Origin: Aggregatilineales bacterium | GTDB taxonomy: Bacteria; Chloroflexota; Anaerolineae; Aggregatilineales; Phototrophicaceae | Length of the DNA: 34,700 bases | Reading direction: 5' to 3' | Assembly (NCBI GenBank): GCA_029975765.1 | Contig: JARKOK010000419.1 | Location: 1 to 34,700 of the forward strand | Part shown: positions 23,974 to 34,144 of the stretch, piece after piece | Layout: the number at the start of each line of letters is the position of its first letter | Position numbering within the stretch: the stretch's first letter is position 1 | Notes under the pieces: generated by a model | The model's database searches: none | The model's input: the letters and a program-made list of their open reading frames with translations, nothing else | What the model was told of the DNA's origin: nothing | Translations under genes and position numbers: made by a program

Positions 23974-24046
23974 GCGGGTGTAGCTCAGTTGGTAGAGCAC
24001 TTGCTTCCCAAGCAAGGTGTCACGGGTTCGAATCCCGTTACCCGCT
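23974..24046 (+). tRNA. tRNA-Gly (anticodon CCC)
   Basis: A 73-base cloverleaf is evident: acceptor GCGGGTG with TACCCGC, D arm GCTC-AGTTGGTA-GAGC, anticodon stem CTTGC/GCAAG with loop TTCCCAA (anticodon CCC at 24007-24009), T arm ACGGG-TTCGAAT-CCCGT, and discriminator T at 24046. CCA is not encoded. The 3' part from 24005 onward is the integration site of the adjacent element, which restores the tRNA sequence, so the gene remains intact. Confidence 0.96.
24005..24046 (+). repeat. attL: left 42-bp direct repeat within tRNA-Gly
   Basis: This 42-base segment, from the anticodon loop to the discriminator base, recurs exactly at 34103-34144. Flanking bases differ on both sides (24004 C versus A; 24047 T versus A), so the match is exactly 42 bp. 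Together with the tyrosine integrase beside it, this marks the left attachment site of an integrated element. Confidence 0.93.
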
Positions 24047-24060
24047 TTTGAGATAAAAAA

Positions 24061-24085
24061 GCCCCTCGAATTGAGGGGCTTTTTT
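24061..24085. terminator. Strong bidirectional intrinsic terminator after tRNA-Gly
   Basis: GCCCCTC and GAGGGGC form a perfect 7-bp stem with loop GAATT, preceded by AAAAAA and followed by TTTTTT. On the plus strand it ends the tRNA transcript; on the minus strand it ends the element's leftward operon, whose last stop codon is at 24087. It belongs to the element side of attL. Confidence 0.9.
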
Positions 24086-24086
24086 A

Positions 24087-24434
24087 TCACCATTGCCGCC
24101 TGTGCCGTGCTTCAAGCATTTCCCGCCGGGCTACAGCATCCTCATCTTTAGCCATCACAAGCAAATCCGTGATTTCATCACGTAAGCGGATAAGCTGCTC
24201 CCGGTAATGTGCTATGTCCTCGTGCCGTTTTAAGCTGTCACGGATTTTCTGCAATTCATGCAAAATCATGATGTGTGCGGCATGGGCTTCTTTCTGCCGC
24301 CGCTCGCGGGCCTTGCGACACTTCGGACTACACGTGAGGGCTTTTTTCCCTGTGATCGGCTTCTTGCATTCGGTACAGGTGTGACCGGGCGATGTCACAT
24401 CTCGAAAGCTAAAATCATAGCTGTGACTGGTCAT
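24087..24434 (-). CDS. Zinc-ribbon plus coiled-coil small protein
   Basis: About 115 aa. A CTECKKPITGKKALTCSPKCRKARERRQKE segment gives a CxxC...CxxxC zinc-ribbon-like motif followed by a basic patch, resembling zinc knuckles found in plasmid and phage accessory proteins. The rest is charged helix, probably coiled coil. I place the start at ATG 24434, 10 bases after GGAGG; a GTG at 24440, overlapping the integrase stop, is also possible. It is the last gene of the leftward operon, directly after the integrase, so it could act in recombination as a directionality or accessory factor. That is only a positional guess. Confidence 0.65.
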   Translation of the reverse strand: MTSHSYDFSFRDVTSPGHTCTECKKPITGKKALTCSPKCRKARERRQKEAHAAHIMILHELQKIRDSLKRHEDIAHYREQLIRLRDEITDLLVMAKDEDAVARREMLEARHRRQW

Positions 24435-24436
24435 TG

Positions 24437-25315
24437 TCACATTTCCTCCAATTTCTTAGCCGGGCTGTACTTCTCATGCGCAGCCGCGATTTCTTCACTG
24501 GTGAAAACAGCGTAGTAGCGCGCCAGCGTATCAACGCTTTCGTGCCCCAGAATGCGCGCCAGTGTGACCGGATCGCCGCCGGCCTTGATGTACGCCATCG
24601 TCAGCGCATGGCGGAAACTGTGCGGGTTAAAGCGCCCCTGCACTCCCGCCCGCCGCGCCAGCCGCCGGAATAACTGATACAATCCGCTCCTGGTCAGCGG
24701 CTCTAAAGTGTCCGTGCTGTAAAACAGCGTGGGCACGTCCTGGCGAACGTCTATCCAGCGCAGCAGCAGCGCCGCCGTGACTTTGGTGAAAGGCAGCGCG
24801 CGCGTCTTACCGCCCTTCTCTGTGACCACTGCCGTCCTGTGCTCCATATCCAGCGCGCCGACGGTCAATTCCCGTATGCCCTGCGAACGTGCGCCCGTGT
24901 CCAGGGCAAACGCGAGAATGGCCTGATTCCGCTCTACATCGCGTCCTAACGCGGCTGCGTGAAACATCAGCAGCATATCCTCCAGCGAAGCGGCTTTAGG
25001 CGCCTTCTGGGCCGGTTGCCGGGGATAGCTGATGTTCCTCATGGGGTTGCGGATGTCATATTCCGCCGCTGCCCACTTCCAGAAGCGATGCAACGCCCGC
25101 GCATGGTCAGCCTGAGTATCGGCGCTGCTGTAGTGCCCCCGCAGGGCTTGCAGATACAGCCGCATATCGTGCGCCGTGATAGACGCCAGCGCGCGCCCGG
25201 CGTGCTCATTTACGAAGCGCGTGAGCAGCCAGCGGTACCAATCCGTTGTACTCTGGCGCAGGCCGTCCGCAATGGTGCTGAGTAGGAATTCCTGGAGTGC
25301 TGTTTCAATGCTCAT
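24437..25315 (-). CDS. int: Tyrosine recombinase/integrase of the element
   Basis: 292 aa, a full-length XerC/D-like tyrosine recombinase. The N-terminal SAM-like DNA-binding domain covers about residues 3-90. The catalytic domain shows Arg143 (TGARSQGIREL), Lys170 (TEKGGKTR), His232-x-x-Arg235 (PHSFRH), His258 (LGHES) and the nucleophile Tyr267 (LARYYAV). It should catalyse integration and excision between the 42-bp tRNA-Gly repeat and its attP counterpart. It sits about 400 bases from attL, as expected for a tRNA-site integrase, and near the end of the leftward operon. ATG 25315 is the first in-frame start; a TATAGA lies just upstream on the minus strand, but no clear Shine-Dalgarno. Confidence 0.95.
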   Translation of the reverse strand: MSIETALQEFLLSTIADGLRQSTTDWYRWLLTRFVNEHAGRALASITAHDMRLYLQALRGHYSSADTQADHARALHRFWKWAAAEYDIRNPMRNISYPRQPAQKAPKAASLEDMLLMFHAAALGRDVERNQAILAFALDTGARSQGIRELTVGALDMEHRTAVVTEKGGKTRALPFTKVTAALLLRWIDVRQDVPTLFYSTDTLEPLTRSGLYQLFRRLARRAGVQGRFNPHSFRHALTMAYIKAGGDPVTLARILGHESVDTLARYYAVFTSEEIAAAHEKYSPAKKLEEM

Positions 25316-25333: not shown

Positions 25334-25401
25334 CGCCCCGGCACAGTTACCTGCCGGGCCGGGGCGTGTGGATGTTAGCCGGGTAGCCCCCACTACCCGG
25401 C
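25334..25401 (-). terminator. Two strong hairpins between membrane-protein gene and integrase
   Basis: CGCCCCGGC (25334-25342) pairs perfectly with GCCGGGGCG (25358-25366), and GCCGGGTAG (25378-25386) pairs perfectly with CTACCCGGC (25393-25401), which overlaps the membrane-protein stop. Neither has a T tract. They may attenuate transcription into the integrase gene or stabilise the upstream message. Confidence 0.4.
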
Positions 25402-26085
25402 GTCCTCCTTCCCGTTGGTTGATAAGTGCTCACTGAGTAATTCGCAGCGTGCCTTGTGCGCCCGCAGCGCCATTGTTGCCGACCGGCTGTTGCTGTACTC
25501 CCCGCTCCAACCGCAATCACACCGGGCAATGATGCCGGTCGCCTCCCCCTCATCCGGCGCCGGCAGCGCCACCGGCTGCGTGTCGCCGTCCTCCAATGTG
25601 GGCACGGCGACGGCCTCCAATTCTATCTGGAGCGCGGGCTGTGCCCCGGCGGGCGGCTCACTGCTGAACGTGTACAGCAGCGTGCTTAAAGGCAGCAGCG
25701 CCGGGATGATCCACAACGCCGCGTCTCTTAGGCTGATGACGCTCGCACGCGCAATATCGGATACTCCCTCACCCACCGGCAGCGCAGGCATATGATGAGC
25801 GATATACAGCCATTGCAGGTAATACGTCGCCCCGGCGAAGATCACAAAAGTCAGACCCCGCCGCCCCGTGAGGCCGTGCGCCCGGATTTCTGCGCTCGTG
25901 GCGATCTGACCTACGTCCAGCGCGAAAGCAATCAACAGCGCGGGTGCCAGCCAGCCTACCAGATGCCAGCCGTCCGGCTGCTGCCCGGCGAACAAGGTCC
26001 CCAGCGCCCAAGTTGAATGCACCAGCGCCGCGAGTCCAGTTGCGAAAATGAAAGGCTGCTCCAGAATGTGCCGTAGAAATTTCAT
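25393..26085 (-). CDS. Four-helix membrane protein with C-terminal Cys/His motif
   Basis: 230 aa. About four membrane segments occupy residues 1-145: FIFATGLAALVHSTWALGTLF, LVGWLAPALLIAFALDV, GLTFVIFAGATYYLQWLYIAH and ALWIIPALLPLSTLLYTF. An acidic linker follows, then a compact CDCGWSGEY...ALRAHKARC segment whose C-x-C and H-x3-C spacing resembles a zinc finger. I do not recognise the family. ATG 26085 overlaps the previous stop as ATGA, with GGGGAGGAG upstream, so expression is coupled to the 60-aa gene. Possible roles include membrane anchoring of the replication apparatus or exclusion of related elements; neither is shown. Confidence 0.68.
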   Translation of the reverse strand: MKFLRHILEQPFIFATGLAALVHSTWALGTLFAGQQPDGWHLVGWLAPALLIAFALDVGQIATSAEIRAHGLTGRRGLTFVIFAGATYYLQWLYIAHHMPALPVGEGVSDIARASVISLRDAALWIIPALLPLSTLLYTFSSEPPAGAQPALQIELEAVAVPTLEDGDTQPVALPAPDEGEATGIIARCDCGWSGEYSNSRSATMALRAHKARCELLSEHLSTNGKEDAG

Positions 26086-26503: not shown

Positions 26504-27853
26504 TCACGTCAATAGCCGTGCTCCTTTCCAGACTTTGAGGCCGTTGGTTTTGCTATCAGACAAACCTAAGCGCCGCCATTCTTTGGCAGCGTTAGCCGCG
26601 TTTTTCGCCTTGTAGCCGTTGCGCTCGCAGTATTGCCGGTAGTCGTCATAAAGGTCTTGTCCGCCCACATTGAATGATGGGTTAAAGTCCAGCCGGTCAT
26701 CTGCGTACATGGCTTCAATGTCGTTTTCGCGCCGGTATTGCTCGCGCCACTTCTGGGAGCGTTCCGGCAGGGTGAACCGGCCCGTTTCCATGAGGCGGTT
26801 GTAGCCGTCCAGGAGGTAATTGAAGATGCCGGGGCGCTCCTGTTCAATCAGGCGGGGCAGGGCGCTGTTGCGCTGGTCCGGAGGGATGATGTGCTCAAAC
26901 AGCAGCGGCAGCAGCCGGTTGAGCGTGGCGCCGGAGCGGTCATTGACCTTCGGCGCGCTGTTCATTGCCCACCAGAATTTAGCGGTTGGCACAAATGAGA
27001 TGCCGGGTTTGTTCTTCACATCCACGTAAATCTCATCACTGCCGCCCACCATCGCTTTGTACAGCGCGTCGGGCAGGAACATCGTGGAATCGGCTTCGGT
27101 GAAGGTCACGACGCGCTTGCCCACAATTCCAGACAGCAGAAAGCGGTTGTTTGCCAGTTGATTCAGGTCAATCGTGGCGTGCAGATTGCCCATGATGCCC
27201 CGAATTGCCCCAATTAAGGTGCTTTTACCGGTATCTGGCTTGCCCACCAGCCAGAACGACGCTTTTAAATCAGTTCTGGCGGTCATTGAGTACGCCAGCG
27301 CCTCTTGCGCCAGCATCAGCATCTCAAAATCGGTTGTACCGTCCTCATGCGCCAGTGAGGTCTTGAGAAATCGCTTGAAGATCGGGCAGTCTGCCGCCTC
27401 ATCAAAACTAAACGATAGTTGGGTGCTGAAATACAGATCAGGGTTGTGCGGCTCAAGCTGGAAGGTCTCCAGGTTGAACAGCCCGTTTTGCAGGTTGATA
27501 TATTTAGCCGTGTCCTGTTCCAATTCGTTGATTCTCCGGTCTGGGACAAATACATCGTCCTGGAGCATGGCGGCTACCGAATTGATGCGCCCCTGCCGGA
27601 TGCCGCCCTTTAGTTTCGCCCGGTGAGGTTTCAGGGCTTGCCGGATGAACTTACGCGGCTCATTGTCCTCCCGCTCGAACCAGCAGCCCGCTTCATACAC
27701 GCGCCAGCCGCCGCGAAAGTACGCCACTTTCCCGGCCCATTCCCCGGCGATGAAGGTCGCAATTTGGTCATCATCGGCATAATCCGGCAGTCCGCTGGTG
27801 TCATCCACCGGCGCGGCTGCTAATTCGCGGTCTACGTGTTGCGCTTCTGCCAT
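26504..27853 (-). CDS. D5/P4-type SF3 replicative helicase
   Basis: 449 aa. The D5_N-like region includes YINLQNGLFNLET...LEPHNPDLYFSTQL (about 118-145). The superfamily 3 helicase core follows: Walker A GKPDTGKST (204-212), Walker B VVTFTEAD (248-255) and motif C FVPTAKFWWAMNSAP (287-301, sensor Asn298). Such proteins unwind DNA at the origin of P4-like satellites, phages and integrative plasmids, working with a primase. Here the primase is a separate upstream protein; the start overlaps its end by 22 bases and has GAGGAG six bases upstream. The putative origin lies directly after the stop. The C-terminus (370-449) is a winged-helix-like basic region that may bind the origin. Confidence 0.93.
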   Translation of the reverse strand: MAEAQHVDRELAAAPVDDTSGLPDYADDDQIATFIAGEWAGKVAYFRGGWRVYEAGCWFEREDNEPRKFIRQALKPHRAKLKGGIRQGRINSVAAMLQDDVFVPDRRINELEQDTAKYINLQNGLFNLETFQLEPHNPDLYFSTQLSFSFDEAADCPIFKRFLKTSLAHEDGTTDFEMLMLAQEALAYSMTARTDLKASFWLVGKPDTGKSTLIGAIRGIMGNLHATIDLNQLANNRFLLSGIVGKRVVTFTEADSTMFLPDALYKAMVGGSDEIYVDVKNKPGISFVPTAKFWWAMNSAPKVNDRSGATLNRLLPLLFEHIIPPDQRNSALPRLIEQERPGIFNYLLDGYNRLMETGRFTLPERSQKWREQYRRENDIEAMYADDRLDFNPSFNVGGQDLYDDYRQYCERNGYKAKNAANAAKEWRRLGLSDSKTNGLKVWKGARLLT

Positions 27854-28695
27854 TGAAGACTCCTCGGTTCTGCGATGCCCGCCGTCAGGCCGCTGCGGAT
27901 CGTGCGCCCGGCTTCACCTGGTGGACACTGCGCCGTCTGCGCCGCGCCGAGCAGCGCCGCCGTCACTTCGCTTTCGGTCAGCAGCCCATCCCCGACAAGC
28001 TGCCCCAGGTTGTACGCCGCACGATGCAGCGTCTCATTGCGCGCGCCTTCCCGCGCCGCTGCCACATCCCGCGACTCGTAATACAGCGCCGCCCGCGCCG
28101 CCCGCTCATAACCAATGGTACGTTTCAGGTCTGCCGCTGCTGGTGTCCGCCTGGTGCGCTGCGCCCGCTGTTCCTGTTTCGCGTGGATCATGCCGATGAT
28201 CCACATCACCACCGGCTGCATGTCCTTCAACCGGCGCGGCGGGGCAGGGTTGGTAAGCAGGTACGGCGCGCCCGTGTCGGGATGGATGGAGGGCGGCGCC
28301 ACCACATAGCAGCCGTTAGCCCGTAGTTCCACGTTACCGGTGTATCCGATATAGCGCGTCGTGTTGGGCAGGCTGTCCGCCTGGTAGTACAGGTGCTTGC
28401 CGCGCCCGCTGCCAGTGGCGACGGTATACGTGTCCAGCAGGTCAGGCCAGCGCGCTTCAAATGCGGCTATTGCGGTCAGGCCGTCCAGGTCAATCACGAC
28501 CAGGTTGCCCGATATGCGCCCGCACACGATGCCCACGTTCATCAGCCAGCCTTTCCGCTCCCACGCCTGAATTTGCCCGTGTGAGGCGATTTTGTGCTGC
28601 CGCTCGCCCCAGTCTATGGCGGGCTTCTTGCCCACCAGCGGCAGCACGCTGTAGCCCCGTTCGGCATAGGCTAGAGCTGCTTCCAGGATGTTCAT
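27832..28695 (-). CDS. Bifunctional primase-polymerase (Prim-Pol, AEP superfamily)
   Basis: 287 aa. The N-terminal Prim-Pol domain shows the archaeo-eukaryotic primase motifs: VVIDLDG with D69 and D71, GSGRGKHLYY with H101, and NVELRANGCYVVAPPSIHP with E123. The C-terminal 100 residues are a PriCT-like helical region. It should synthesise primers, and perhaps extend them, for replication of the element together with the SF3 helicase encoded next. The ATG at 28695 overlaps the upstream stop as ATGA and has GGGAGGA just before it. Length fits stand-alone Prim-Pol proteins of integrative plasmids. Confidence 0.92.
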   Translation of the reverse strand: MNILEAALAYAERGYSVLPLVGKKPAIDWGERQHKIASHGQIQAWERKGWLMNVGIVCGRISGNLVVIDLDGLTAIAAFEARWPDLLDTYTVATGSGRGKHLYYQADSLPNTTRYIGYTGNVELRANGCYVVAPPSIHPDTGAPYLLTNPAPPRRLKDMQPVVMWIIGMIHAKQEQRAQRTRRTPAAADLKRTIGYERAARAALYYESRDVAAAREGARNETLHRAAYNLGQLVGDGLLTESEVTAALLGAAQTAQCPPGEAGRTIRSGLTAGIAEPRSLQWQKRNT

Positions 28696-29054
28696 TTGTC
28701 CTCCCGGATGTGCGCCTCATCTGTCAGCACTTCTTCGATGAAATCCGCGTCCGCCGTCGCTGCGAACCCCGGTTCGCTTTCAACCGTCGCATTCAGCCCG
28801 AACGCCTCGAGCTGCGCCCGAATCACGCTGTCTATGCTTACGTCCATCTCCAGCGCGTCCATCACGGCCTCCAGCAGTTCCGCCTGCGCGATGTAAAGCT
28901 CCTGCTGCCAGCGTGTGTACTCCTGGCTGTAGCGCCAGTGTTTGCCCGGCTGGTCGCCGCTTTCCCGGCACAACTGCATTGCCAGCTCCAGCCGCTTCAG
29001 ATGTGACTGACATGTCACCACGTTGCCCGCTGCCTGCCGAATTTCCCCGTTCAT
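28692..29054 (-). CDS. Small helical protein in the replication operon
   Basis: 120 aa from ATG 29054, which overlaps the HTH gene's stop as ATGA. It is mostly charged helix (residues 15-75) with an acidic C-terminus (DADFIEEVLTDEAHIREDK). No family is recognised. The longer frame to 29117 lacks a better start and would overlap the HTH gene. Its place between a regulator and the primase suggests a replication accessory protein, by position only. Confidence 0.68.
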   Translation of the reverse strand: MNGEIRQAAGNVVTCQSHLKRLELAMQLCRESGDQPGKHWRYSQEYTRWQQELYIAQAELLEAVMDALEMDVSIDSVIRAQLEAFGLNATVESEPGFAATADADFIEEVLTDEAHIREDK

Positions 29055-29242
29055 GCTGCGCTGCCTTCCTGTTTCACATACACCTGCTTGAGCGTGTAGC
29101 CGTTGTCTTTCAGCCACTTGTTGACAGTTGCCGCCGATACGCCCAGAATCCTGGCCGTTTCGTGCTGCCCGTGCGCGTTGACCAGTTCCGGGATTACCCG
29201 GTTCAGGTCGCCTTTCTGTTTTTCAATGTCTCGGAGTTTCAC
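29051..29242 (-). CDS. 63-aa helix-turn-helix protein, first gene of leftward operon
   Basis: The protein contains HGQHETARILGVSAATVNKWLKDNGYT, a clear helix-turn-helix of homeodomain/Fis-like type. I chose GTG 29242 because GGAGG sits five bases upstream. An in-frame ATG at 29254 would itself overlap that Shine-Dalgarno, and a TTG at 29272 would start before the operator. With this start the operator-like repeat 29254-29271 lies just upstream. As first gene of the replication/integration operon and divergent from an Xre repressor, it could act like a Cro or early regulator, or an excisionase. The sequence does not decide between these. Confidence 0.72.
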   Translation of the reverse strand: MKLRDIEKQKGDLNRVIPELVNAHGQHETARILGVSAATVNKWLKDNGYTLKQVYVKQEGSAA

Positions 29243-29366: not shown

Positions 29367-29699
29367 ATGATAAGTGGCGAGAGACTTCGCATGTTGAGAG
29401 AATCAGCAGGCTATACACGGGAAACCTTTGCCAACGCAATTGGCATTGGTACGGCACAGGTTGCCCGGTATGAGCGTGGTGAAAATGATGCTACGGGGGA
29501 GGTGCTTTCTCGAATTGCTCAATTGTTCGGTGTAACAACTGATTATCTTCTAGGGTTATCTGATGCTCCAGAAGCGTCTGTATCAGACAAATTATCTGTG
29601 AAAGAGCGCATGGCTATTTCAGCTTGGAGGCGGGGGGAGCGGCTTGAAGCTATGAAGGTCATCGCTAATGATGATGATATAGTCAGCGCGGGCAAGTAA
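29367..29699 (+). CDS. Xre-family (HTH_3) transcriptional regulator
   Basis: 110 aa. Residues 3-62 (ERLRMLRESAGYTRETFANAIGIGTAQVARYERGENDATGEVLSRIAQLFGVTTDYLLGL) are a classical cI/Xre HTH_3 domain. The remaining 48 residues are a short charged tail without a peptidase or sensing domain. It is transcribed divergently from the replication operon across a symmetric operator region, so it is the likely element repressor. By eye the gene and its surroundings are clearly AT-richer than the flanking element genes. ATG 29367 has only a weak ribosome site (ACTGAG). Confidence 0.88.
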   Translation: MISGERLRMLRESAGYTRETFANAIGIGTAQVARYERGENDATGEVLSRIAQLFGVTTDYLLGLSDAPEASVSDKLSVKERMAISAWRRGERLEAMKVIANDDDIVSAGK

Positions 29700-29987: not shown

Positions 29988-30230
29988 TCACTGGTAAACG
30001 GCGCGGCTGGCGCGGCTGGCTTTGACGGCAGCGGGCGGCGCGCTGGATTGTTCCTCAGTCGGCAAGGGCCGCAGGCTGGCTTTCAGCCCGGCCATCTCCC
30101 GTAAATCGTTGATGTAAGCCTCCGTCCGCTGATTCAGTTTCACCCACACGATCCACCAGGCGATGAGCACAATCGCCGGCCAGCCCATTTCCAGGATCGT
30201 CCGCAGTCCGGTTAAAACATCACCTTCCAT
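29988..30230 (-). CDS. Small single-helix membrane protein
   Basis: 80 aa from ATG 30230, which has GGAGG six bases upstream; the frame is open to 30329 but that start has no such support. One membrane segment (GWPAIVLIAWWIVWVKL, about 16-32) is followed by a helical part (NQRTEAYINDLREMAGL) and an Ala/Ser-rich tail. The topology recalls phage holin/spanin accessory or coiled-coil membrane adaptors, with no family recognised. It is divergent from the cargo promoter at 30340-30396. Confidence 0.6.
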   Translation of the reverse strand: MEGDVLTGLRTILEMGWPAIVLIAWWIVWVKLNQRTEAYINDLREMAGLKASLRPLPTEEQSSAPPAAVKASRASRAVYQ

Positions 30231-30339
30231 GACGCGCCTCCTTAACTCTCGTGCTCCTATTATCATGCCTTTTGCCCCGTATTTCCGTAACAAAAAATGA
30301 ATTTTTAGCTCGAATTTTCTAACTAACACATGATTGTGT

Positions 30340-30396
30340 AAACATATGAATTGACATTCATATGTTTATCGGTTTAAATCGCAGTAGCGATTTAAA
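30340..30396 (+). promoter_or_regulatory. Cargo-operon promoter embedded in two perfect inverted repeats
   Basis: TTGACA (30351-30356) and TTAAAT (30374-30379) are separated by 17 bases. The -35 box lies in the centre of a perfect 12-bp inverted repeat, AAACATATGAAT (30340-30351) / ATTCATATGTTT (30356-30367). The -10 box lies in a second perfect 10-bp inverted repeat, TTTAAATCGC (30373-30382) / GCGATTTAAA (30387-30396). The centres are 31 bp apart, about three helical turns. This arrangement predicts tight repression of the downstream operon by a dimeric regulator binding twice on one face. The second repeat shares TAAATCG with the repeats at 29254 and 29313, with a different spacer. Confidence 0.8.
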
Positions 30397-30415
30397 GCAA
30401 TCGGAGGTCAATCCC

Positions 30416-30661
30416 ATGCCTGAACAGAATTCGGATGTCGTTTTCACCCCGTCCGCTGAGGATAAAAACCTCATGCACGCCCACCTGCAAACCCTTGATC
30501 CGGAGGGCAAGGGCGTCACCCTGGACAAGCTGCGCACGTTCTATCCCAAAACCGGCTGGAGTCCGATTTTGGTCACGCTGCGCGCGCTGGTCAGTGAAGG
30601 CCGCGCCCGGACCGCCATGCGCGGCCAGCCGGTCGCGTTTGAGTATTTCATCTGGCAGTAG
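30416..30661 (+). CDS. Small winged-helix-like protein, first gene of cargo operon
   Basis: 81 aa. ATG 30416 has GGAGG nine bases upstream; the frame extends to 30362 but that would place the start inside the operators. VTLDKLRTFYPKTGWSPILVTLRALVSEGRARTAMRGQPVAFEYF has a helix-helix-wing pattern like small winged-helix DNA-binding proteins. No specific family is recognised. Sitting just behind two inverted repeats, it may autoregulate the operon (inference). Confidence 0.62.
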   Translation: MPEQNSDVVFTPSAEDKNLMHAHLQTLDPEGKGVTLDKLRTFYPKTGWSPILVTLRALVSEGRARTAMRGQPVAFEYFIWQ

Positions 30662-30736: not shown

Positions 30737-31234
30737 ATGGCAGCACCCCATGTTTTCCTGGTCTACAGCATTCGGGACGCGAAGGGTAAAACCTCCACCG
30801 TCAAAATCAATTTCCCGGTTACGGTCAATATTGGCATGGTTCAGGACTTCGCCGTCAGCACGGCCACCATGATCAACAGCCTTATCAAGGGCCAGATCAT
30901 GGATGCCGGAATCGGCCTGGCCGTTGACCTGTCGGGCGCTACCATCCGCAACGCCCCCGACCCCAACAGCGACGTGGAAGAAGGCGCGCGCTTCTCCTGG
31001 CGTTCTGCCGCTGGCGCTATCACGAATTTCCGTTTGCCCACGTTTGATGAAGCCTTCATGGTTTCCGGCACGCGCAACGTGGACACCGAAGACACAACGG
31101 TAGATGCTTTCGTGCAGCGCATCATTGAAGGCCGAACAGTCGGCCTGGAGAATGCATCGCCGTCCGATGACCGGGGCAGCGATATTGAAGCCCTGGACAC
31201 GGCGCGCGAATCCTTCACTTCCAGCCGGGGCTGA
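30737..31234 (+). CDS. A1: conserved element protein, paralogue of A2
   Basis: 165 aa, no signal peptide or membrane segment, mixed beta character. ATG 30737 has GAGGAGAGG upstream. It is paralogous to the 166-aa protein at 31935: both begin with a beta strand and DAKxx, share PNSDVEEG followed by an aromatic strand, an R-[LI]-PT motif, and a DxRGS segment before the C-terminus. I do not recognise the family. Each A gene is immediately followed by a B gene encoding a fibre-like protein, so A may be an adaptor, assembly partner or chaperone for B (inference). Confidence 0.78.
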   Translation: MAAPHVFLVYSIRDAKGKTSTVKINFPVTVNIGMVQDFAVSTATMINSLIKGQIMDAGIGLAVDLSGATIRNAPDPNSDVEEGARFSWRSAAGAITNFRLPTFDEAFMVSGTRNVDTEDTTVDAFVQRIIEGRTVGLENASPSDDRGSDIEALDTARESFTSSRG

Positions 31235-31235
31235 C

Positions 31236-31934
31236 GTGTTTCCGGTCTGTGATGCGGACGCTGAGACGTATCTTGCCCCCGTGCCCAGCGCGGGGGTTTT
31301 TGATGCGCCGGGTATCCGGTTATGCCTGAATACTCAGTGGGCGTCTCATCTGGACGGCCTGCTCGGTCAATTGCTGAATCGCTGTCTCTGGGCGGGTTCT
31401 GAAACCGACGTGGACGCGGCGCTCCAAGAGGTAAACAAGCTGCTGGTCAAACTGGCGGAGGTGGGAGACTGTGAAAGCGAGCCTATCGTGACCCCCTACG
31501 CGCTGTTTCGAGACGAAAAAACGATGGGGCAAGATGGCGGCACCTTTACCGCTGGCGCCTGGCGGCGCCGCCAGCTTGGTTTTACCTTCGCCACTGGCGG
31601 CTTTGCCACAATGACGGATGATCAGATCACCCTACCCGCTGGCACGTACCGCTGCCGGATTCAATGCCCGGCGGCTGCCGTCAATAAACATCAGGCGCGG
31701 CTGTACAATGTTACTGATTCCGCCGTGCTGCTGTGGGGATCGTCGCAGCGTACTGCGGCCACGCTTAATACCGTCATTCCCAGCATCATCATTGGGCGCT
31801 TTACACTGGCCGCGTCGAAAGTGCTGGAGGTACAGCACCGGTGTGAAACCACTGTGACAAACACCGGCTTTGGATATGCTGCCGGATTCGACACGGAAGT
31901 TTATACAATCGCTGAAATCTGGAAGGAGGCCTGA
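31236..31934 (+). CDS. B1: fibre-like protein with phage receptor-binding-type head
   Basis: 232 aa from GTG 31236, one base after the A1 stop; an upstream ATG would overlap A1 by about 130 bases and break the similarity to B2. Residues about 13-85 (VPSAGVFDAP...CLNTQWASHLDGLLGQLL...W) match residues 37-104 of B2. Residues about 98-232 resemble a C-terminal head domain common in phage tail-fibre proteins: a TF-AGAW strand, LPAGTYRCRIQCPA, HQARLYNVTDSAVLLWGSS, IIGRFTLAASKVLEVQHRCETT and VYTIAEIWKEA. It is thus a modular two-domain fibre with a probable ligand-binding tip, recognised by memory rather than search. The A2 ribosome site (GGAGG) lies inside its end. Confidence 0.78.
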   Translation: MFPVCDADAETYLAPVPSAGVFDAPGIRLCLNTQWASHLDGLLGQLLNRCLWAGSETDVDAALQEVNKLLVKLAEVGDCESEPIVTPYALFRDEKTMGQDGGTFTAGAWRRRQLGFTFATGGFATMTDDQITLPAGTYRCRIQCPAAAVNKHQARLYNVTDSAVLLWGSSQRTAATLNTVIPSIIIGRFTLAASKVLEVQHRCETTVTNTGFGYAAGFDTEVYTIAEIWKEA

Positions 31935-32435
31935 ATGGCGCAGCAATGGTTAGTAAGCCTTACGGTTCGAGACGCGAAAGATCAGAAATCCGTTATCCCG
32001 GTTTATGTGCAGTCGCCAGATGTCATTGCTGATCCAGCCGATGACCCGGCAGAATGGGCCCAGGAGCTTGCAACCCGCATGGATGATCTGATTGATGGTC
32101 AGATTGTGGCAATCGCGGCGGCGCGTGTCGTCGAGCTGCCCGCCGGACTGAAAGCCGCGCCCAACCCCAACAGTGACGTGGAGGAAGGCATGACCTTCTA
32201 TTGGAACACGGCAATCAGCGCGCCGTCTCATGTGCGTATTCCCACCTGGAGGGAAGATTTAGCGGAAATTGATGGCAGCGCCTCCGATACAGTGGATGTT
32301 GCCAATTTTTCCCTGATGTTCACCGGACCGGAGGAATTACCCGCCAACTGGTCGGTTGATCCGACCGATTCGCGCGGTTCAAGCATCGTGGCGCGCATTC
32401 GCACTAAAGAGACGTTTCGGCGTTCACGGCGGTAA
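31935..32435 (+). CDS. A2: paralogue of A1
   Basis: 166 aa, starting directly at the B1 stop (TGA-ATG) with GGAGG five bases upstream. It aligns with A1 along most of its length: VRDAK near the start, DLIDGQIV against SLIKGQIM, AAPNPNSDVEEGMTFYW against NAPDPNSDVEEGARFSW, VRIPTW against FRLPTF, and DSRGS against DDRGS. Divergence is substantial, so the duplication is not recent, unlike the collagen repeat in B2. No known family is recognised. Conserved pairing with a B gene argues that the two proteins work together. Confidence 0.78.
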   Translation: MAQQWLVSLTVRDAKDQKSVIPVYVQSPDVIADPADDPAEWAQELATRMDDLIDGQIVAIAAARVVELPAGLKAAPNPNSDVEEGMTFYWNTAISAPSHVRIPTWREDLAEIDGSASDTVDVANFSLMFTGPEELPANWSVDPTDSRGSSIVARIRTKETFRRSRR

Positions 32436-32438
32436 ACC

Positions 32439-34085
32439 ATGCCCAGAGGCAGCGGCGGACGCCAGGGCACCTACCCCACCCCCACCCCGGCGCATTTTGT
32501 GCCGGAAGTCATCCGGCCTTATGATGTGCGCCTGAACCCGCGCCCCGTGCCATCTGAAGGCGTTTTCGACGCGCCAACGGTCAAAATCTGCGTTAATTCC
32601 ACCTGGGTAAGCCATGTGGATGGCGTGCTGGAGCGGCTGCTCTACCGGGATGCCTGGCTGGGTAATCAGGCTGAGGTACAGCGCGCGCTCGGTGAGGTTC
32701 GGAAGCTGCTGGCGGCGCTGGCAAGAATAGGATCATGTGAGGACATGGCAATCACTGACATTCGTGTCAACGGCTGCTCGCTGGAAGTGCAGTACGACAA
32801 TTCTGGTGACTGGGTGATTGTCGGAGACTTAACCGCCTGTGCCGTGCCCGGCCCGCAGGGGCCGCAGGGCGAACCCGGTGAACCTGGCCCACCTGGTCAG
32901 GACGGCGCGCCCGGTGAACCCGGCCCGCAGGGGCCGCAGGGCGAACCCGGCGAACCTGGCCCGCCTGGTCAGGACGGCGCGCCTGGTGAACCCGGTGAAA
33001 CCGGCCCGCAGGGGCCGCAGGGCGTGCCGGGGCCTCAGGGCCCGCAGGGGGAAACAGGCCCGCAGGGGCCGAAAGGTGACAAGGGGGATCCCGGGGACTG
33101 TACCTGTGTGGAAGTGCCGCCGGTCGAAAAAGACCCCACCGACGGCTTACGCTGCTCGATTGCTATCAACCTGGCAAACGACCTCAAGCGCATCTGGGAT
33201 AAGGCATGGGCAAACGACAATGATTTTATCGGTGACTACATCAGTGGCGTTTTATCTATTGGCGGAGTGGTTGCTCTCTTAATCCCCGGCGTTAATGTTG
33301 GTTACGCAGTCGTCGCTTTCTTGGGTGCAGCACTTATAGAGGTTGGTCAACTTATCGAACAAAATGAAGCCAACGCTTTCGACCAGGATGCCCTGGAGCG
33401 GTACCGCTGCTACCTGTACTGTCTCCTGCCCGACGATCTCAATTTTACCGACGCGGTTAAAGAAGCATGGGCACAGGAAATCGAAGCGGACACCTTGAAT
33501 CCTCAGGCGATGGTGGTTGCTCACGTACTGCGCGGCATTCCGTATGAGGAATTTCAATGGCTGGCGTGGGCCAGTTCCGAAGTCAACCCGGCAGCCTGCG
33601 CCGAATGCGAGTGCGAAGAAGAACCGGAACCGTGCGGGGATTGCATCAACACTGACCATAACTACGCTCACAACAGCACGGCCTGGGAAGGGAATTTTCA
33701 ACTTCTGCGCACTTCCGTCTCTACACCGGTCGGACAGACCGATTCAATTGGTGTACTCCAGCCGGATCAGAGCATCATCCTCAATATGGGCGCTGAATAC
33801 TGCGTCTGGGATGTCAAGCTCTACCAGTATGATGCCGTGACCACTAACCGGTACTGGAAAACCATCAAGGCCGAGTTCCTGAATGACAATAATAACGTTG
33901 TGTATGAAAGTTCGGCGCTGGATTCGCGCGGCGGGGTGCTTTGCGGCCATATGAACCCCATTACCTTTGCTCCAGATACGCCCATCCTTGCCAGCAAGAT
34001 TCGCTTTACCGGCGTAACTTACGGCACCGGGCAAAGTGGGGTTAGCAATGTATTATGGTGCGCGAAGGTCAACCGCTGCGACTGA
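32439..34085 (+). CDS. B2: collagen-like fibre protein
   Basis: 548 aa, starting three bases after A2. Residues 37-104 match the B1 N-terminal domain ([46 protein letters not shown]). Residues 105-135 are a beta-rich lead-in ([14 protein letters not shown]...WVIVGDL). Residues 138-221 are 28 uninterrupted Gly-X-Y triplets, a collagen-like shaft. A cysteine pair follows (CTC), then a hydrophobic helical stretch (about 268-305), helices, a Cys/Glu-rich linker ([16 protein letters not shown]) and a beta-rich C-terminal domain of about 140 aa with several Cys. There is no signal peptide. Collagen shafts are common in phage tail fibres. It ends 17 bases before attR. Confidence 0.82.
32850..32993 (+). 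repeat. Two tandem 72-bp collagen-coding units
   Basis: Units 32850-32921 and 32922-32993 each encode the same 24 residues (eight Gly-X-Y triplets). They differ at three bases, all synonymous third positions (GGT/GGC, CCA/CCG, CCC/CCT). This indicates a recent in-frame expansion of the shaft with the protein sequence preserved. Confidence 0.88.
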
Positions 34086-34102: not shown

Positions 34103-34144
34103 TTCCCAAGCAAGGTGTCACGGGTTCGAATCCCGTTACCCGCT
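34103..34144 (+). repeat. attR: right 42-bp direct repeat
   Basis: Exact copy of the tRNA-Gly segment 24005-24046. No 5' tRNA half precedes it, so it is not a tRNA gene but the displaced 3' end of the original one. Confidence 0.93.

Follow-up and report, generated by a model that had tools for sequence, protein, structure and literature searches.

The stretch of DNA analysed here (the window, 34,700 nucleotides; contig JARKOK010000419.1, our G000:C110) comes from a metagenome-assembled genome (MAG) of a Chloroflexota bacterium with an estimated contamination of 6.65%, and it contains an integrated element of 10,098 bp whose right end is an operon of four genes, A1-B1-A2-B2. The A genes encode small paralogous proteins, and the B genes encode fibre-like proteins with a common N-terminal anchor and different heads. 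Together they probably form a module of phage-type fibres that have one anchor in common. For the element as a whole we propose, as about an even prospect, that it is a phage-satellite-like integrative element, in which A1-B1-A2-B2 is its own adsorption module and the particle is borrowed.

The A1-B1-A2-B2 operon

The four genes are separated by intergenic gaps of 1, 0 and 3 nt, and B2 stops 17 bp before attR, the right attachment (att) repeat of the element. The features of the operon, in window coordinates, are as follows.

30737..31234, +: A1, 165 aa, proposed adaptor (mean predicted local distance difference test score, pLDDT, 88.5; match in a viral structure library, E=2.3e-15)
31236..31934, +: B1, 232 aa, short fibre with the anchor at residues 1-84 and a phrog_24210 head at 31488-31934
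31935..32435, +: A2, 166 aa, paralogue of A1 (E=2.9e-14)
32439..34085, +: B2, 548 aa, long fibre with anchor, collagen shaft, helical domain and beta-rich head (Collagen, E=7.5e-17)
32439-32846, +: B2 anchor
about 32847-33095, +: B2 collagen shaft
about 33096-33638, +: B2 helical domain (alignment of relatives, low-confidence model)
about 33639-34085, +: B2 beta-rich head (alignment of relatives, low-confidence model)

The likely start codon of B1 is the GTG at 31236, one base past the A1 stop, as the listed open reading frame start at 31104 falls within A1. A1 and A2 are homologous, with 34% identity and the motif PNSDVEEG common to both, and their open reading frames, like that of B2, are as listed in a first-pass annotation, which had called A1 and A2 paralogues from the letters alone. 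The anchors of B1 and B2 are 53% identical across 70 residues, with no alignment beyond; the motif region of the B1 anchor reads LCLNTQWASHLDG and has a 13-residue counterpart in the B2 anchor. The C-terminus of B1 belongs to the PHROG tail-fibre family 24210 (E=2.5e-30), its head matching Sulfitobacter phage tail fibres at 43%, whereas B2 matches the Pfam Collagen family, which agrees with the earlier view that the two proteins share an N-terminal domain and have unrelated C-termini. The collagen shaft that had been assigned to B2 also holds, but the "Cys-rich head" described with it does not. The shaft is followed by a helical part with a hydrophobic segment and a terminal Cys motif, conserved among other long B proteins, and then by a head that is beta-rich and variable between relatives, as judged from the alignment of relatives and the secondary structure of a low-confidence model. 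By inspection, neither the A nor the B proteins start with a signal-like sequence. B1 and B2 look like two fibre classes, one short and one long with a collagen shaft, built on one anchor and accompanied by one type of A.

The A-B family across genomes

Strong matches to the B anchor are found in 8 of the 154 genomes of the order, and strong matches to A in the same 8. A adjoins B every time, mostly overlapping or at most 14 nt apart, the wider gaps being 68 nt between two A genes in locus L022 and 343 nt within the broken array of L020. The genomes are MAGs, where a shared genome on separate contigs is less certain than adjacency on a single contig, and the counts of A and B co-occurrence are not phylogenetically independent. 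Adjacent homologues in 8 genomes rule out chance for the two families. The constant partnership of A with B, suggested before from the window alone, is seen in all eight; the two outcomes that had been named as speaking against it, namely that A and B are housekeeping families or that they occur apart, were looked for and neither was observed. In 400 genomes drawn across the phylum, A is found only in the genome containing the window.

The order of the genes varies. The window has A1-B1-A2-B2, L023, L024 and L082 have A-B1-B2, L022 and L030 have A-A-B2, L019 and L025 combine an A with an extra N-terminal domain and a B2, L051 shows A-B1 at a contig end, and L020 is a longer array with up to four A genes. 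The duplicated A-B pair of the first-pass annotation is thus present in the window and fails as a general rule; the rule across the arrays compared is at least one A with a short and/or a long fibre on one shared anchor. The integrase of L020 and the A genes of L021 are broken. Two of the relatives, both elements of Anaerolineae, are bounded like the element of the window, L025 by 42-bp repeats at a tRNA-Lys (9.8 kb) and L020 by 47-bp repeats at a tRNA-Gly (14 kb); no att repeats of at least 22 bp were detected in the stretches examined of L019, L022, L023, L024, L030, L082 and L083.

In a ninth genome, G549, weak A matches lie beside a divergent long B and a Tail Collar protein whose N-terminus resembles the anchor. 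The genome has two near-identical divergent A-B1-B2 modules of this kind, with a Tail Collar short B, on different contigs (L082 and L083), and the primase-helicase of L082 is 56% identical to that of L025. A further locus, L084 (G520:C23), has the cluster of integrase, o230 (a hydrophobic protein described below), helicase and Prim-Pol, with no A or B detected before the contig end. A search for B2 in plasmids found none.

Exchangeable heads and their source

The heads found on the short-B anchor are phrog_24210 in B1, Phage Tail Collar in L051 (E=1.4e-19) and L082 (E=4.5e-14), DUF4082 in L024 (E=1.4e-40) and a head without an assigned family in L023. At least four unrelated head types thus sit on one anchor family, besides the long form composed of collagen, helical domain and beta-head. 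As in phage receptor-binding fibres, the anchor of the B proteins is conserved and their phage-type heads are exchangeable, and the variety on the short-B anchor is the strongest support for the exchangeable tips on a common anchor that had been predicted from B1 and B2. The two anchors of L024 are 69% identical to each other and about 31-43% identical to the anchors of other elements, a pattern that would be expected if the anchors fit an element-specific partner.

At the DNA level, the B1 head is 75% identical to a gene that the same genome carries on contig C77, and the match is confined to the head (window 31489-31939). The C77 fibre gene (L026, 1097-1654) is preceded by a gene resembling a tail hub and by a small, conserved one, and its N-terminus is unlike that of B1 and common to fibre genes of the viral contigs L086 and L088. 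The B1 head is closest to this gene of its own host (71.6%), followed by genes in G009 (68%), G006 (64%) and G005 (63.5%), and is therefore of a kind that the fibre genes of its host lineage typically carry. The B2 head has a 64% relative elsewhere in the same genome. A corresponding match of the other short-B heads was looked for and is not supported, as they do not match the fibre genes examined in their hosts. A DUF4082 protein near the capsid gene of G004 has a signal-like segment at its start and is not a fibre.

Fibre genes beside the hub gene (L124-L152) keep the first approximately 33 residues across species, with a head that differs between clades, so head swapping occurs in chromosomal genes too.

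The structure of protein A

The AlphaFold2 model of A, built from 11 sequences, folds into two successive beta-beta-alpha-beta units with a pLDDT of 88.5; an internal repeat is merely hinted at in the sequence (hhalign P=0.03). The fold search against the PDB gave no match below E=0.1, with weak alignments to residues 1-66 only. The search against the viral structure library gave a best entry with E=2.3e-15, a template modelling (TM) score of 0.77 and 34% identity, and three further entries with E<1e-4. The convincing structural relatives are solely unnamed viral entries, and the model places A in a family that occurs among records deposited as viral. Relatives with names lie in Anaerolineae and Anaerolineales MAGs, also Chloroflexota. 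Protein A represents a clear-cut new family, whose fold is predicted with confidence and for which the searches gave no solved relative.

An additional domain of about 160 aa is fused to the N-terminus of some copies of A (L019:17571-18548, L025:10705-11679 and L020:9626-10483). These arrays have no separate headed short B, and the head has possibly moved onto A.

Borders and gene content of the element

The borders of the element are set exactly by 42-bp direct repeats at 24005-24046 and 34103-34144, the former being the end of a tRNA gene. The features outside the A1-B1-A2-B2 operon are listed here.

23974..24046, +: tRNA-Gly (CCC), integration target (ARAGORN)
24005-24046: attL, last 42 bp of the tRNA-Gly (exact 42-bp direct repeat)
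24087..24440, -: 117-aa protein with Cys motifs (relative in the G004 element, 46%)
24437..25315, -: tyrosine integrase (PF00589, E=1.4e-28)
25393..26085, -: o230, conserved hydrophobic protein, probably a membrane protein, common to tailed-phage contigs
26504..27853, -: D5_N/DUF5906 part of a primase-helicase, D5-type helicase (Pfam, PHROGs)
27832..28695, -: Prim-Pol primase (PF09250, E=4.4e-28)
28692..29117, -: 141-aa protein, no family match in Pfam or PHROGs
29367..29699, +: HTH_3 regulator (PF01381, E=5.1e-15)
29988..30329, -: 113-aa protein with a single hydrophobic stretch (relative in the G013 element, 43%)
30362..30661, +: 99-aa protein 5' of A (relatives also upstream of A in L023 and L030)
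34103..34144, +: attR, exact 42-bp copy of the tRNA-Gly 3' end

The element has its own recombinase and a site-specific mode of integration (the integrase and the att repeats at tRNA-Gly), as well as its own replication and regulation genes (Prim-Pol, D5_N/DUF5906 and HTH_3), as is typical of satellites. From 26504 rightwards, the genes match no capsid, portal, terminase or lysis family in Pfam or PHROGs, and the integrase, o230 and 117-aa genes match none of these in Pfam, the database used for these three. A full particle and lysis gene set, which integrative satellites lack, is accordingly not recognised, nor were the terminase, portal and major capsid genes of a temperate tailed phage found between the att sites; the first-pass annotation was right that the element has no recognisable capsid or terminase gene.

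The o230 protein has relatives in five IMG/VR contigs. L088 encodes a terminase, portal and major head protein, the last two of which have relatives in L086, and a tape measure protein is encoded by L090. With o230 and other genes having relatives in tailed-phage contigs, the early half of the element is a phage-type module, and, on the gene maps, A-B is positioned where structural genes would be expected. A was not found in the five o230-bearing records, some of which are fragments, and the IMG/VR scan for the integrase retrieved distant integrases only.

L089 has a related integrase, helicase, o230 and a methylase. At the A-B position, L089 and L091 (IMG/VR 3300011432_000018) encode an ATPase resembling FtsK together with proteins that are rich in Thr and Pro and apparently secreted, which may be a third type of late module carried by this backbone. 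Just inside attL, a near-perfect inverted repeat with A and T runs (24052-24088) lies between the tRNA and the convergent leftmost gene and is probably a terminator for both.

Proposed function and alternative explanations

In the satellite account, the virions would be made by a helper, either a tailed phage or perhaps a phage-derived particle belonging to the host itself, and the excised and replicated element would be packaged into a particle that receives the element-encoded fibres. A would act as the adaptor docking the B anchors onto the particle, with B1 as the short receptor-binding fibre and B2 as the long, collagen-shafted one. These fibres would set which cell receives the element, retargeting the particle, and their heads would be swapped via recombination with other fibre genes. 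The account builds on the att repeats and gene content of the element and the two likewise bounded relatives, L025 and L020; on the presence of A and B in the same genomes, always adjacent, with phage-typical heads; on the match of the B1 head to a fibre gene of the same genome and the occurrence of o230 in tailed-phage contigs; and on strong structural matches of A that are viral only, together with the absence of a recognised lysis or shell gene.

Several results weigh against it. No helper was identified for the element. Homologues of A and of the B anchor were not found in IMG/VR, by pattern scans, or in INPHARED, and therefore no phage is known to use the B anchor; the INPHARED tblastn searches gave no match for A1, A2, the B2 anchor, the B2 helical domain or the L082 long B, and the A of L031 gave a partial match to a Burkholderia phage fibre (E=0.02). 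The structure model of B2 is poor, too poor for a fold search. Finally, a head in common with a fibre gene of the host is seen only for B1 of the window; the heads of the other elements lack such a match.

The element could instead be a small temperate virus that is complete and belongs to no known kind, with A as the shell or coat protein, B1 and B2 as spikes, and packaging proteins that are unrecognised or do not exist. A is the sole protein accompanying B in every relative, viral records contain the strong structural matches to its family, nothing but A and B is present in the late half of the element, and both o230 and the 113-aa protein are hydrophobic, all of which would suit such a virus. 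We nevertheless consider it unlikely, since A varies in copy number and sequence within one element (A1 and A2 are 34% identical, and L020 has as many as four A genes) and in some cases carries the additional N-terminal domain, unlike a typical major coat protein, while neither Pfam nor PHROGs recognises a packaging ATPase and the IMG/VR pattern scans did not find A. A degraded prophage, that is, a tailed phage that has lost its head and tail genes and retains fibres that are now functionless, would explain the resemblance of the early genes to tailed-phage contigs and also the broken integrase of L020 and the broken A genes of L021. Against such decay, 8 genomes carry this gene set, devoid of head and tail genes, at different tRNA sites and with A and B intact and divergent, and independent decay would not retain the same two genes; moreover, neither the A nor the B-anchor family is known from phages. 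We regard this explanation as distinctly improbable.

The remaining alternatives accept A-B as functional and assign it a different role. As a decoy or exclusion module, A-B would coat or compete with incoming or released phages and protect the host. Satellites often carry anti-phage functions (PMC10803314, PMC12987554), and the resemblance of the B1 head to a fibre gene of its own host lineage would be expected of a competitor for the same receptor; the two fibre classes, the long shafts and the conserved partner, however, look like parts of a particle, and we give this role little chance. A non-viral surface adhesin, with A-B forming a cell-surface or extracellular structure carried as cargo, appears the least probable. 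Collagen-like, DUF4082 or F5/8-like domains occur in cell-surface proteins too, and the G004 DUF4082 protein starts with a signal-peptide-like segment, but A and B have no such N-terminus, heads such as Phage Tail Collar and the PHROG tail-fibre family are typical of phages, and the module is found solely in mobile elements of the order. The phage-typical heads would favour a part of a virion over a non-viral structure.

Comparison with known systems

The element resembles phage-inducible chromosomal minimalist islands (PICMI), phage-inducible chromosomal islands (PICI) and P4-like satellites (PMC10803314, PMC11389934) in being small and site-specific and in having its own integrase, regulator and primase. 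Like these, it needs no capsid or terminase genes, and DUF5906 is present both in the PICMI models and in the element. However, PICMI encode no structural genes as described (PMC10803314), whereas the element ends in an operon of fibres and proposed adaptors, and its dependence on a helper is presumed. The PICI-like elements (PLE) of Vibrio cholerae (PMC12987554) are integrative and add their own tail parts to a partly helper-built particle, as proposed here. They supply tape measure, chaperone and hub and retain the helper's fibres (PMC12987554), whereas our element supplies fibres, with no tape measure or hub found.

MiniFlayer from Streptomyces (PMC10690885) has a tail fibre and adjacent unknown genes proposed to be an adsorption module, similar to A-B. 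MiniFlayer and MulchRoom have encapsidation genes and no key replication genes (PMC10690885), the reverse of our element, and MiniFlayer has no integrase (PMC10690885). The modular fibres of tailed phages share with B the conserved N-terminal attachment, the exchangeable heads, the collagen shafts, Tail Collar and phrog_24210, but the anchor and A are without a sequence relative in the phage records searched, and the element is without head and tail genes. The satellites compared either borrow the adsorption machinery of the helper or have their own capsid and fibre (PMC10803314, PMC12987554, PMC10690885; hitcher elements are reviewed in PMC11389934). In the open-access literature searched, which leaves most subscription papers outside, no integrative element with fibres as its sole structural genes was found. 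If the satellite account is true, the control of host range would be separated from the DNA-carrying particle, so that the element chooses its recipients whatever the vehicle. In addition, the element illustrates modular fibre heads in a compact natural form.

Scattered particle genes in the order

The tail-hub-like gene beside the C77 fibre gene, in the stretch L026:735-5688, has matches in 118 of the 154 genomes of the order, including 74 of the 90 good-quality genomes, mostly with one or few per genome. The L088-type terminase was found in 2 of 14 genomes and is missing in 12. Such scattered, conserved phage structural genes are possibly those of a gene transfer agent or another domesticated particle, which, if real, would be one candidate vehicle for the element. 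The more specific version, in which the vehicle is the host's domesticated phage-like particle sharing the fibre head, and the element is a satellite that lacks head and tail-tube genes and carries a complete, swappable receptor-binding kit, is in our view very unlikely. A capsid-protease gene, 64-73% identical in five genomes, lies amid unrelated neighbours, and in G014 and G520 it is on the same contig as the portal gene, far from it.

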